This document shows, one piece after another, positions 12,452 to 32,902 of a stretch of DNA of 35,809 bases. The position numbers and the translations under genes are program-made. The notes below the pieces were generated by a model. The model worked only from the letters and a program-made list of their open reading frames with translations. It was not told the DNA's origin and searched no databases. The stretch spans positions 1 through 35,809 of the forward strand of contig NZ_JACJQA010000005.1 of assembly GCF_014696355.1 (NCBI RefSeq), in the 5' to 3' direction. Numbering within the stretch: position 1 is the first letter of the stretch; each line of letters begins with the position of its first letter. This DNA is from Pseudanabaena sp. FACHB-1998. GTDB taxonomy: Bacteria > Cyanobacteriota > Cyanobacteriia > Pseudanabaenales > Pseudanabaenaceae.

Positions 12452-12567
12452 TATATCAAAGTAAGAGTTAGCCATTACAAACCAAAACCCAAAAAGCGAG
12501 TTGCGGCGCGAAGCGCCGCAACTCGCTTTTTGGGTTTTATGTCCTAAGCAAAACTTACTTTGTTATA
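12452..12567. repeat. Palindromic element with TATA(A/T)CAAAGTAAG ends (copy B)
   Basis: The 116-bp element has ends TATATCAAAGTAAG and CTTACTTTGTTATA. Inside lies a 26-bp perfect hairpin (12484-12509 with 12513-12538, loop GAA), starting AAAACCCAAAAAGCGAGTTG. The right part TTTTATGTCCTAAGCAAAAC is shared with copy A at 3259-3362 and, in its outer part, with 16816-16844. It is probably a non-autonomous mobile element. Confidence 0.75.
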
Positions 12568-14650: not shown

Positions 14651-15967
14651 ATGAACTATTTCTTAGGAATTGATTTTGGAACGTCGGGGGTAAGGGCGAT
14701 CGCCATAGATCGCCACCTAGAAATTAGAGCGCTCTCAAGGTGTGATTACAACATTCGCGACTGTGAAACTTGGAAACTTGCTCTAGATGAAGTAATTATC
14801 AGCTTACCGTCGCAGATTAGGCAAAATATCAAAAAAATAGTCATTGATGGGACTTCGTCAACGGTGTTAATGAGCGATCGCTTTGGGGAAGTAATCACGC
14901 CGCCCCTGATCTATAGCGATTCTTGTAAACCCGAAATTTTAGAGCGCGTTAAAAAAATTGCCCCGTTAGATCATTTTGTTGGTAGTTCGACCTCCAGTTT
15001 TGCCAAGTTAATTTCTTTGTTAGATAGAGAGGAGGTGAATTTAGCACAGCTAATTTCGAGCAGTAATTCTCTTTATTTTTTACATCAGGCGGACTGGTTA
15101 AGTTATTTACTGCATGGCAGGTTGGGAATTAGCGATTTCCATAATGTGCTGAAGCTTGGCTATGACATGACAAATTTAATTTATCCTGATTGGCTGAAGA
15201 ATTGGGCTAAAAAAAATCCTGCTTTGGTTTTGCCAGAAATATTTGCTCCAAGTACGAATTTGGGCAGGATTCAACAGGAAATGGCGGCGAAGTTTGAGTT
15301 ACCCGTGGATTGTGCGATCGGGGCAGGAACTACTGATAGTAATGCTGCATTTCTCGCGGCAGTTGGTAAGGCAAAGCCTGAAATTGGGACAGCCGTTACT
15401 TCCCTCGGCTCGTCCATGGTGTTGAAAGTATTAAGCGATCGCCCTGTCAATAATGCACATTACGGTATTTATAGTCATCGCTTTGAGCATCCTGATTTAG
15501 GTTGCTTGTGGTTAGTGGGTGGGGCTTCTAATGTGGGTGGGGCTGTACTCAAGCAGTTTTTTACGGATGAGCAGTTACAGGCTTTCAGCGATCGCATTAA
15601 TCCCAACATTCCTAGTCCTTTGGATTATTATCCTTTGACAAAAAGTGGCGATCGCTTTCCCATAAACGATCCCCACCTCGCCCCAAGGCTAGAGCCACGT
15701 CCTGATGATCCCGTGGAATTTTTACATGGTTTATTAGAGAGCATGGCAAGGATCGAAGCACAGGGTTATACCCTATTAGCACAGCTAGGTGCGTCTCCTG
15801 TACATCATCTCTACACCGCAGGTGGGGGCGCAAAGAATCTGGTTTGGACAAAAATACGCGATCGGCTACTAAACCAACAACTTCAGATTTCTATGCAGCA
15901 AGCGCCACAAACTGAGGCAGCCTATGGCGCTGCCTTACTGGCTAGCGTTAATAATCCAAACCCGTAA
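14651..15967 (+). CDS. FGGY carbohydrate kinase, D-ribulose kinase-like (SePSK/XK-1 type)
   Basis: 438 residues, about 50-60 shorter than classical xylulokinases, which fits the cyanobacterial/plant SePSK/AtXK-1 group shown to phosphorylate D-ribulose. The ATP-binding loop LGIDFGTSGVRAIAID has Asp at residue 8. The catalytic-base region is GAGTTDSNAAF (D229), and the C-terminal adenosine motif is LYTAGGGAKNLVWTKI. The start ATG lies 5 nt after a strong hairpin and has no Shine-Dalgarno-like sequence, so translation may be leaderless or unusual. The last codons and the stop TAA lie inside the next hairpin. Another FGGY substrate (xylulose, glycerol) cannot be excluded from sequence. Confidence 0.82.
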   Translation: MNYFLGIDFGTSGVRAIAIDRHLEIRALSRCDYNIRDCETWKLALDEVIISLPSQIRQNIKKIVIDGTSSTVLMSDRFGEVITPPLIYSDSCKPEILERVKKIAPLDHFVGSSTSSFAKLISLLDREEVNLAQLISSSNSLYFLHQADWLSYLLHGRLGISDFHNVLKLGYDMTNLIYPDWLKNWAKKNPALVLPEIFAPSTNLGRIQQEMAAKFELPVDCAIGAGTTDSNAAFLAAVGKAKPEIGTAVTSLGSSMVLKVLSDRPVNNAHYGIYSHRFEHPDLGCLWLVGGASNVGGAVLKQFFTDEQLQAFSDRINPNIPSPLDYYPLTKSGDRFPINDPHLAPRLEPRPDDPVEFLHGLLESMARIEAQGYTLLAQLGASPVHHLYTAGGGAKNLVWTKIRDRLLNQQLQISMQQAPQTEAAYGAALLASVNNPNP

Positions 15968-16004
15968 AGTTGCGCCCCTGCGGGGCGCAACTTTACGGGT
16001 TTGG
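15956..16004 (+). terminator. Hairpin terminator containing the kinase stop codon
   Basis: A 23-bp perfect stem (15956-15978 with 15982-16004), loop TGC, arm CCCGTAAAGTTGCGCCCC. The stop TAA (15965-15967) lies within the left arm. Nearly the same hairpin occurs at 32345-32397. Confidence 0.75.
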
Positions 16005-16744: not shown

Positions 16745-16760
16745 CTCCTTTTTTAGAGTT

Positions 16761-16844
16761 AAAAGTGAAAATATAAGCGGTGGTACTTTGTACCACCGCT
16801 TATATTTTCACTTTTATGACTTGAACAAAAATTACCTTGCTATA
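16761..16844. repeat. Hairpin with a conserved right end (copy C of the palindromic family)
   Basis: A 26-bp perfect stem (16761-16786 with 16790-16815, loop TTT), arm AAAAGTGAAAATATAAGCGG. It serves as the likely terminator of the gene ending at 16744. To its right, 16816-16844 ends ATTACCTTGCTATA. In reverse complement this aligns position by position with the right end of copy B at 12539-12567, although the stem sequences differ completely. The matching left end is not clear. Confidence 0.65.
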
Positions 16845-29734: not shown

Positions 29735-30814
29735 ATGATCGCAACATCACAAGTTCCCGCTACCGTCCTGACAGGCTTCCTTGGCGCAGGCAAAACCACT
29801 TTACTAAATCATATTCTTACGGCTGAACATGGCAAAAAGGTTGCTGTCATTGTTAATGAATTTGGCGAAATCGGTATCGATCAGCAATTAGTAATTGGTG
29901 CTGACGAAGAAATTTTTGAGATGAATAATGGTTGTATTTGCTGCACCGTGCGTGGCGATCTAATTCGGATCATTGGCAACCTGATGCGCCGCCGCAACAA
30001 ATTTGATCACCTCCTCATTGAAACCACAGGTTTAGCCGATCCTGGCCCCGTGATTCAAACTTTCTTTATGGATGAAGATATTCATCGACAAGTGGAGCTT
30101 GATGCGGTGGTCACGGTGGTGGATGCTAAGCACGTCCAACAACATTGGGGCGATCGCGAAGTTCTGGAGCAAATTGGCTTTGCGGATGTAATTTTGCTCA
30201 ACAAGACCGATCTAGTTACTTCTGCGGAACTAGACGAACTCGAAGCAAAAATCAAGCATTTGAATGTTTTAGCAAGAGTTGATCGGGTTCAGCTAAACCA
30301 AGCTAATACCGAAAATATTGAAGACAGCATTAACAAAGTTCTCAATGTTGGTGGGTTTGACCTTGATCGAATCCTTGAGAAGAATCCTGAATTTCTTGCT
30401 GCTCAAATCAAAGATGATCACGACCATGAGCATCACGACCATGAACACGAGCATCATGAGCATGATCACGACCACCATGAACATGAGCATCACGAACATC
30501 AACACCATATCCATGACGAGGAAGTCGGCTCGGTCAGCATCTTAGAAGCTGGCTCCGTCAATCCTTACAAGTTTCAAGCATGGATCAGCGAGTTATTGAG
30601 AACTCAAGGTCAAGATATTTTTCGTTCTAAGGGAATTATCAATTTCTCTGGTTCTGAGGAGCGTTTGGTATTTCAGGGTGTGCATATGCAGTTTGATGCC
30701 ACGCGCGATCGCCCTTGGAAAGAAAACGAACTTCGCAAAAATCAATTAGTTTTTATCGGTAGACATCTGGAAGAGGCGAAGTTGCGCGAAGGTTTTCTAG
30801 GTTGCTTGATTTAA
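29735..30814 (+). CDS. COG0523 (CobW/ZNG1-type) GTPase metallochaperone
   Basis: 359 residues. A Walker A GFLGAGKTT lies at 14-22, the metal-binding CxCC in GCICC (66-70) and the guanine-specificity NKTD at 156-159. Between the GTPase and the C-terminal CobW_C domain lies a linker (229-260) with 19 histidines in 32 residues, alternating with Asp and Glu; this is a likely zinc or nickel store. The C-terminal domain shows IINFSGSEERLVFQGVHMQFD. Such proteins deliver zinc or other metals to client enzymes, often under zinc starvation. No Zur operator of the usual palindromic type was seen in the 73-nt leader. A TATAAT at 29682-29687 may be its -10 box. Confidence 0.92.
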   Translation: MIATSQVPATVLTGFLGAGKTTLLNHILTAEHGKKVAVIVNEFGEIGIDQQLVIGADEEIFEMNNGCICCTVRGDLIRIIGNLMRRRNKFDHLLIETTGLADPGPVIQTFFMDEDIHRQVELDAVVTVVDAKHVQQHWGDREVLEQIGFADVILLNKTDLVTSAELDELEAKIKHLNVLARVDRVQLNQANTENIEDSINKVLNVGGFDLDRILEKNPEFLAAQIKDDHDHEHHDHEHEHHEHDHDHHEHEHHEHQHHIHDEEVGSVSILEAGSVNPYKFQAWISELLRTQGQDIFRSKGIINFSGSEERLVFQGVHMQFDATRDRPWKENELRKNQLVFIGRHLEEAKLREGFLGCLI

Positions 30815-30816
30815 TA

Positions 30817-30853
30817 TCAAAGGAAGAAATGGCTACGCCATTTCTTCCTTTGA
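30817..30853 (+). terminator. Terminator hairpin of the COG0523 gene
   Basis: TCAAAGGAAGAAATGGC (30817-30833), loop TAC, GCCATTTCTTCCTTTGA (30837-30853), 17 bp perfect, beginning 2 nt after the stop codon. Confidence 0.8.
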
Positions 30854-30878
30854 AAAACCTTACTGGGATTGCTAGATC

Positions 30879-30933
30879 AAAGCCCAAGAAGAGAAGGTCT
30901 GCGCTAAGCGCAGACCTTCTCTTCTTGGGCTTT
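30879..30933 (-). terminator. Terminator hairpin of desA
   Basis: A 26-bp perfect stem (30879-30904 with 30908-30933), loop TAA, arm AAAGCCCAAGAAGAGAAGGT. It lies 20 nt past the desA stop on the minus strand. The left flank TTGCTAGATCAAAGCCC resembles the inner flank of copy A (TTGCTAGGACACAAAACCC in reverse complement). Confidence 0.8.
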
Positions 30934-30953
30934 ATTAATAGACTTGATGTTAA

Positions 30954-31994
30954 CTAAGCTGATTTAGAGGCAGTATCAACTTCATCAAAAGCTTTATAGC
31001 ACTTCTCCGCATCATAAATATGGCAGCGATCGCCAATATCTTTCATTAACTCCCATGAGAACTTAGTCTTGTACATATATTGTCCCCAATTCTCATCAAG
31101 AGACTTATGTGCTAGACGTAGATTATAGGAAGGAATACCCGTAGATACGTGGTGAGGAACATGCACGTTAATGTCGTGACATAGAATTTCCACCCAAGCA
31201 GGATAGTCGCAATGCACAGTACCAGTTAACTGATCAGTAGCCGCAATCCATTTGTCCTTATCCTTAAATTGGATATCGGGCATGGTGTGGTGAACAATTG
31301 TGAAAGTACTCATCCAGAAGTGATATACCAACCAAGGCATCAAGAAGAAGCTAATAAATCCTGTAAAGCCTGTGGTGTAAATCAAAACAGGAATCGCGAT
31401 CGCCGCAAAAGCAATTACTAGGCGATAGGAAAACTTTACTTGCTCTTGCTGACGCTCAGGATAGATACTGGCGTTGAAGTGTAAGTTAGCCCAATGAATA
31501 ATCGAACCAATCCACCAATAACGGGTACGAATTAGACGATAGATATTGGTAATTAAACCTTTGCCCTGTTCATATTCTTCAACGGTGAAAGGATACCAAG
31601 CATTATCTTCACCCATTTTATTGGTATGCAAGTGGTGATGATCATGCTTGAAGCGCCAGCCGTGGAAGGGATAGAGCAATGGTAAGAAAGCGATATGTCC
31701 GACGAGGTCGTTAACCCAATTTTTGTTAGAAAATGAGCGATGTCCACAGTCATGACCAATTACAAACCAACCCGTGAGAGCCGTACCTGTAAAAATCCAA
31801 GCGAAGGGTAGTAAGTACCAAGGCGAAAAGGCAATACTTGCGTAGCCTAATGCGGCGGCTGTTAGGGATAGTAAAACTCCAAACCAAGCTTTGAGAGGTT
31901 TTTTCTCAAAATACTCAGAAGGTATAGTTTTGATGATGTCGCGAAGAGTTGTCTCAGGTGTAAGAGTATGTGAGGAATTTTGTATGGCAACCAC
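30954..31994 (-). CDS. desA: Delta-12 acyl-lipid fatty acid desaturase
   Basis: 346 residues, GTG start at 31992-31994. DesA introduces the second double bond (delta-12) into membrane-lipid C18 chains, using ferredoxin as electron donor, and is a key cold-acclimation enzyme. The three histidine boxes are intact: HDCGH (81-85), HDHHH (117-121) and HVPHH (278-282). Segments such as [20 protein letters not shown] and [17 protein letters not shown] match cyanobacterial DesA closely. Four or so membrane helices flank the boxes. The GTG overlaps the stop of the preceding 60-codon gene by one base (TAGTG), so translation is probably coupled. GGGAG about 10 nt upstream could be the ribosome binding site. 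Confidence 0.95.
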
Positions 31995-32176
31995 TACTGA
32001 GCACTCCCTACTGCGGTCAAACGTTGACTGCTCAAGCTTTGCAATTGCTGTAAAAGAACATCGATATCTGATTGTAATTCAGCCAGTTCTGCTTGAACTT
32101 CTTCAGAATATAGTTTTTTGGCGGTTACGTTCAATGAAAAAATCTCTTTTGTTGGGGCTTCAGTTTGTTTGCTCAT
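31994..32176 (-). CDS. Small hypothetical protein translationally coupled to desA
   Basis: 60 residues from the ATG at 32176 ([20 protein letters not shown]); an in-frame GTG at 32206 is less likely. The second half is a probable coiled coil ([20 protein letters not shown]). No motif is recognised. Its TAG stop overlaps the GTG start of desA by one base, which strongly suggests that it is a real, co-expressed gene. Codons read as normal for the neighbourhood. Confidence 0.65.
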
Positions 32177-32344
32177 ACTTCTTTTAAAACGCTGCAATAA
32201 CACCACAAAAATATTTATGACTCAGATTCTAGCTTATGTTATGTGTATTTTTGTATATCCATAAACATATTTAATGAGTAATTATACGGATCAAGTTTTC
32301 TTCTTTGCTTTTACTGTTAATTAAGTGCTTGCGCAAAATAAATT

Positions 32345-32397
32345 ACTAAAACCCGTAAAGTTGCGCCCCTACGGGGCGCAACTTTACGGGTTTTAGT
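32345..32397. repeat. Hairpin nearly identical to 15956-16004
   Basis: A 25-bp perfect stem (32345-32369 with 32373-32397), loop TAC, arm CCCGTAAAGTTGCGCCCC shared with the hairpin at the end of the FGGY kinase gene. It is not next to a stop codon here (the nearest is about 70 nt away). Confidence 0.75.
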
Positions 32398-32426
32398 TCG
32401 TAATTAATCATGCTTAGCCACTTCCC

Positions 32427-32465
32427 AAGAATGAGTGATGGCGCTTCGCGCCATCACTCATTCTT
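32427..32465 (-). terminator. Terminator hairpin of the secreted unknown
   Basis: AAGAATGAGTGATGGCGC (32427-32444), loop TTC, GCGCCATCACTCATTCTT (32448-32465), 18 bp perfect. The right arm overlaps the stop codon of the minus-strand gene by one base. Confidence 0.8.
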
Positions 32466-32872
32466 TAATACTTAGTGCCGATGGGTGTATCCGCAAATAA
32501 AATCGGGGCGATCGCGGCGGCTGAGCCAAGGCGATCATCAGCATATTCTTCGAGGCTGTAGTACTGATCCATGCGATCGCATAAGCCTTGGGGATTCAAG
32601 CTTTGGATATTGTGACTAATGATGTAGCTTTGCGCCGCCGAGCCACGAAAGGCGGCAAAGGCTTCTTCGCAATAGGCTAGCTTAGATTCTGGCGCAGCAA
32701 CAAGCCAATCGGAGCCATGCATATTGCCACTCAAAATTGGCTGACCATGAGCGGGAATAACAACCCGCCGTTCGGCAGCGATCGCTTGACCACTTATGTC
32801 AAGGCAGCAGACAATCAGGATAATAGTGACAAACAAGGTTTTAAATGCATGGGAAAGTGGATTTGGGTGCAT
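32465..32872 (-). CDS. Hypothetical secreted protein
   Basis: 135 residues from the ATG at 32872; an in-frame TTG at 32902 is less likely. Residues 1-33 form a signal peptide with a hydrophobic core (LFVTIILIVCCLDI) and an AIA-type cleavage site, so the mature protein is periplasmic or extracellular. The mature part has three cysteines (in YCEEAF, GLCDRM and the signal core), an AAFRGSAAQSYIISHNIQSL helix-strand region and ends GTKY. No family is recognised. It stands alone between hairpins and the long leader of pipX. Confidence 0.58.
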   Translation of the reverse strand: MHPNPLSHAFKTLFVTIILIVCCLDISGQAIAAERRVVIPAHGQPILSGNMHGSDWLVAAPESKLAYCEEAFAAFRGSAAQSYIISHNIQSLNPQGLCDRMDQYYSLEEYADDRLGSAAAIAPILFADTPIGTKY

Positions 32873-32902
32873 AGGTCGCTCGAATTTTGCTCGCAAGATC
32901 AA

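Follow-up and report, generated by a model that had tools for sequence, protein, structure and literature searches.

The closest described counterparts of the locus analyzed here are pairs of translationally coupled genes whose stop and start share one base (-1 nt; TAATG, TGATG, or TAGTG) and that use termination-reinitiation; in such pairs, an internal Shine-Dalgarno motif is typical, though not required. In the systems tested, reinitiation was nearly abolished by a gap of 20 nt, according to the accessible part of PMC10666635. In cyanobacteria, co-directed overlaps represent <10% of pairs, and 40% of overlapping pairs carry the motif, compared with about 20% or less of leading genes, as reported in the accessible part of PMC6728339. 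Regulatory leader peptides, which act by attenuation or ribosome stalling, offer another comparison: as here, a short ORF lies immediately upstream of a gene that may be regulated. The desA genes of cyanobacteria, whose products carry an FA_desaturase domain as does the one described below, provide the third. In other cyanobacteria, this desaturase is cold-induced.

We analyzed a window of 35,809 nucleotides from Pseudanabaena sp. FACHB-1998 (NZ_JACJQA010000005.1, positions 1 to 35,809), in which a gene of 60 codons directly precedes desA. The arrangement is of an ordinary and well-supported kind, not a new kind of system. The two genes would quite probably form an operon in which desA is started by termination-reinitiation at the small-gene stop. 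Unlike in known coupled pairs, the upstream gene here encodes a protein of 60 codons that is located elsewhere in many relatives, and it is from the sequence that we infer that the two genes share a transcript, that their translation is coupled, and that their products might be functional partners.

The stop/start junction and its internal motif

The desA gene (30954-31994, minus strand) has a GTG start and a TAA stop and encodes an acyl-lipid desaturase of 346 aa that matched FA_desaturase in Pfam (E 1.9e-31). We take it to be the cyanobacterial delta-12 acyl-lipid desaturase. With a threshold of E <= 1e-90, it had a single match per genome in 103 of 104 genomes. The small gene (31994-32176, minus strand; ATG start, TAG stop, 60 aa) belongs to a phylum-wide family of small helical, coiled-coil-like proteins. 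At the TAGTG junction (31992-31996, minus strand), the small-gene stop (31996-31994) and the desA start (31994-31992) have base 31994 in common, exactly as described in the first-pass annotation, which had also proposed looking for the small gene beside desA in related genomes. It was found there, with an identical TAG/GTG overlap, in 26/26 genomes of the genus. Members of three other genera (G005, G006, and G001) have a TAATG overlap with an ATG start. The one-base overlap between the two genes was seen only in the family of the window (f1).

In 25 of the 26 loci, the stretch between the previous in-frame stop and codon 37 of desA has no in-frame ATG, GTG, or TTG other than the desA GTG; the remaining one (L025) has one additional in-frame start, 36 nt upstream. 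No in-frame start occurs at codons 2-37 in any of the 26, and the next one, where present up to codon 40, is codon 38. Upstream of this start, a Shine-Dalgarno-like motif for desA, GGGAG (32004-32008, minus strand), lies within the Gly-Ser codons of the small gene. It is present in 29/29 coupled loci (the 26 from Pseudanabaena plus G005, G006, and G001, hence four genera) and is always 7 nt from the small-gene stop and 9 nt from the desA start. The two codons, GGG and AGT, are identical in 26/26 genomes of the genus, while most core codons vary synonymously. The motif was found in 0/64 rows of family copies without the one-base overlap (56 distinct genes, eight of which are present twice), and a related tetramer occurs in the last 25 nt of 8 of these 64 rows. 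In L089, TAGTG is present, but the desA start is ~1.3 kb further on and GGGAG is absent. GGGAG thus accompanies the coupled arrangement and was absent from every other copy examined, so the desA motif best accounts for the Gly-Ser ending of the small protein.

The pair therefore resembles described -1 nt overlap pairs in its same-strand stop/start overlap, its internal Shine-Dalgarno-like motif, shared by four genera, and its single in-frame start near the stop (no alternative in 25/26). From the overlap, the single start, and the conserved internal motif, coupling is probable. One promoter upstream of the small gene would probably drive both genes, as suggested by the one conserved upstream block described below, and the small gene would yield a helical protein of its own. 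Ribosomes ending at the TAG would then be held at the GTG by GGGAG in the last codons and would start desA, and the output of DesA would thereby be tied to translation of the small gene.

The GGGAG motif could equally serve independent initiation of desA. The two genes might then be compactly packed without coupling, with desA initiating by itself from GGGAG and an adjacency that reflects inherited synteny of no regulatory meaning. Among co-directed conserved pairs, only one other arrangement is commoner than the one-base overlap according to the accessible part of PMC10666635, and the absence of a selected masking of the desA start is also consistent with packing. In predicted folds of 27 loci, the desA start was paired (0.10 unpaired). 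In 23 distinct windows around the junction, the start codon was 0.07 unpaired natively vs 0.17 after synonymous resampling (mean rank 0.34, a mild difference), and the GGGAG motif was 0.27 unpaired in both cases (mean rank 0.57 among shuffles). With no clear excess over synonymous resampling, the idea that RNA structure masks the desA start was rejected. Packing without coupling nevertheless appears unlikely to us, since the overlap and the motif are kept in 29/29 loci of four genera, though relatives have spacers of ~50 to 485 nt. Inspection by eye of the junction in the 26 loci of the genus showed no slippery run that would allow a programmed frameshift joining the two frames.

The small gene and its protein

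The family-level sample comprised 38 genomes, 26 of the genus of the window and 12 others of f1, and the small gene was searched for with a threshold of E <= 0.01. It was detected in 33/38, including 26/26 of the same genus, where the ORF is 60-69 aa long and always directly ahead of desA. Among the 19 named records of small-gene copies, 15 are from Pseudanabaena, and the rest are from Phormidium tenue, an Oscillatoriales MAG, and two uncultured cyanobacteria. A codon comparison of the 26 genus genomes gave a pooled pS of 0.39 vs a pN of 0.08. The median dN/dS was 0.13 over 318/325 pairs, the 7 other pairs being outside the pS filter and identical and near-identical strains being kept in the set. 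Changes in the protein core are mostly synonymous. The small ORF is thus a genuine coding gene whose protein core is under purifying selection.

Its product might nevertheless be functionless if the ORF mainly regulated desA by being translated, as a leader or attenuator peptide does. The position ahead of desA and the overlap agree with such a role, as do codons 1, 2, 4, 5, and 6, which are identical in 26/26 genus genomes, and codon 3, identical in 25/26. Since these first codons are near-invariant, part of the constraint on the small gene acts at the RNA level. However, the core of the small protein is under purifying selection, and no Rfam family matched in the window. Unlike known leader peptides, the small protein is conserved and is also encoded away from desA or where desA is undetected, and no attenuator was recognized.

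Across the 386 genomes sampled from the phylum, a profile built from the genus and its near relatives (A1) matched 76 and a wider profile (A2) matched 113, two of them more than once. The members read are 49-103 aa, counted from the first ATG. Among 81 distinct family sequences, columns 34, 37, 41, 44, 48, and 51, with a 3-4-3-4-3 spacing, are 89-100% hydrophobic; column 45 is likewise hydrophobic in the family alignment. The window protein was modeled as one helix (residues 6-59) with a mean pLDDT of 79 overall and values of 97 and 96 in residues 31-50. A heptad a/d hydrophobic repeat in a predicted helix supports a coiled coil, in agreement with the likely coiled-coil peptide proposed at first pass.

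Every Pfam or NCBIfam match of the window protein was below the curated cut-off. The 22 other A2 members gave weak matches only, judged by E-values alone, with a best E of 0.0013 against Pfam among the matches listed (25 of 33 families) and a best E of 0.011 against NCBIfam. Among solved structures, the closest was at E 0.53, which is chance level, and no solved relative was found. A literature search, with most subscription journals outside its reach, returned no title or abstract start on the small gene, and the accessible part of PMC8557916 contained nothing relevant. We found neither a curated family nor a function for this small protein, which is widespread in cyanobacteria and whose tie to membrane-lipid desaturation is testable.

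Distribution and neighbors across the phylum

In the sample of 386 genomes, desA was called at E <= 1e-90 (104 genomes) and the small gene with profile A2. Both genes were found in 98 genomes, the small gene only in 15, desA only in 6, and neither in 267. This co-occurrence is not independent evidence, because the shared ancestry of the genomes is uncorrected. The arrangement in the window is not the rule for cyanobacterial desA: only 18 of the 98 genomes with both have the small gene ahead of it, on the same strand and no more than 3 kb away. These 18 belong to five families: four are of the genus of the window (f1), 11 are the f11 genomes with desA, all of which are linked, and f9, f27, and f28 contribute one each. 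In the other 80, the two genes are on one contig but apart (42) or on different contigs (38).

These patterns weigh heavily against a leader peptide. Homologs of the small protein are found phylum-wide and 80/98 are not beside desA; the small gene persists in G033, where it is ~98 kb from desA on the same contig, and in 15 genomes in which no desA was detected at E <= 1e-90. Because the small protein occurs away from desA, a leader peptide specific to desA is unlikely, and we consider a functionless one very improbable. The candidate leader or regulator of the first-pass annotation is thus retained in part: a real gene stands beside desA, and the overlap and motif fit coupling, but a dispensable regulatory peptide is not supported, as the protein is phylum-wide, beside desA in only 18/98 genomes, and present in 15 genomes without detected desA. 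In genome annotation, the small ORF should be dismissed neither as spurious nor as merely a leader.

A conserved coiled-coil protein could instead be a dedicated DesA partner or assembly factor that binds the desaturase or its electron donor, the overlap setting the stoichiometry. According to the accessible part of PMC10666635, E. coli pairs at -8 to +10 nt are enriched for complex subunits (30.4% vs 6.8%). The small gene is also linked to desA in five families, and in f11 this holds for all 11 genomes with desA; the strong co-occurrence (98/15/6/267), although confounded by shared ancestry, points the same way. We regard such a partnership as rather unlikely, given the 15 genomes with the small gene only, the 6 with desA only, the 80/98 in which the genes are not adjacent, and the equally persistent presence of another neighbor, thrC (21/42 loci). 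Broader still is the distinctly improbable proposal that the family is an unrecognized accessory factor (for assembly, stability, or electron transfer) of cyanobacterial membrane desaturases, which would have been first encoded with desA, the coupling being fixed in Pseudanabaena.

A divergent threonine synthase gene, thrC, was found near the small gene in 21 of the 42 loci examined (L076-L085, L088, L089, L100, L102-L104, L106-L108, L111, and L115), the 42 including two, L094 and L095, that hold no small gene. These loci come from several cyanobacterial families, and the identity of thrC was checked in one representative (TIGR00260, E 7.8e-102). On the other side of the small gene, desA is present in 12 of the 21. 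Among the 20 unlinked small-gene copies examined, with no desA in the fetched region, thrC was near 9, and four f7 loci of these 20 have thrC and lack desA. The proximity of thrC in several families suggests an old neighborhood, as packing without coupling would have it.

Within f1 but outside the genus (12 genomes), the overlap was found in 3, a gap of 47-52 nt in 2, the small gene away from desA in 2, and no small gene in 5 (E <= 0.01). The two genomes with the gap, G036 and G037, keep the neighborhood and have no GGGAG; coupling is therefore not essential to the small gene-desA pair. In G034, the two genes are on different contigs. In both G033, with no desA nearby, and G001, where desA is coupled, the gene ahead of the small gene encodes an acetyltransferase domain, and this supports orthology. 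Outside f1, 130-485 nt (1.3 kb in f28) separate the small-gene stop from the first possible start of desA, and the spacer to the likely desA start is about 240-485 nt in other families.

Judged from this distribution, the link between the small gene and desA is old. The simplest history would be an old thrC/small gene/desA neighborhood that was broken in many lineages, and the overlap probably arose by loss of the spacer before desA in the Pseudanabaena lineage. Spacers of ~240-485 nt, of ~50 nt, and the one-base overlap provide a natural series in which to follow how translational coupling originated, and do so in a phylum reported to have few overlaps. In f11, the spacers of L080-L085 contain conserved blocks, and several have an inverted repeat, CTCGTCTGCC...GGCAACGAG, shortly before desA (by eye); these may be a leader RNA element.

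Upstream region and flanking sequences

A block upstream of the small gene (32216-32290, minus strand) is conserved in most of the 26 genus genomes, and in the window it contains a hexamer, TAGAAT (32231-32226), that looks like a -10 box when inspected by eye. The stretch behind it is conserved too (TTTGTGGTGT... in the window; GTGGTGTGATC...AAGGAAGT in most others). We read the conserved block, the leader, and the first small-gene codons as a candidate operon promoter and translation start. No clear -35 box was seen in the block, and a consensus promoter scan found no site in it; over 30800-32900, the scan found 5 sites vs 5.0 expected, including one weak match within the small gene (32134-32107, minus strand). 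An RpaB/HLR1-like site was discarded as a candidate: the window had 16 matches with <=3 mismatches vs 18.5 expected, none of them at 32216-32290.

Convergent with desA is a CobW-family GTPase gene (29735-30814, plus strand) whose product has a long His/Asp/Glu-rich stretch (HDHEHHDHEHEHHEHDHDHH...). An ORF of 145 codons (32465-32902, minus strand) precedes the operon in the same orientation and had no Pfam or NCBIfam match; by eye, L006 and L091 have relatives of it ahead of their small gene. The window also contains many perfect palindromes with arms of 17-27 nt separated by 1-3 nt, such as those at 30879-30933, 32345-32397, 32427-32465, 30817-30853, 15956-16004, 12484-12538, and 16760-16816, and several of them flank the small gene-desA operon. 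Those at 32345-32397 and 15956-16004 have the same arm, AAACCCGTAAAGTTGCGCCCC, and may thus belong to a dispersed family of palindromic repeats.
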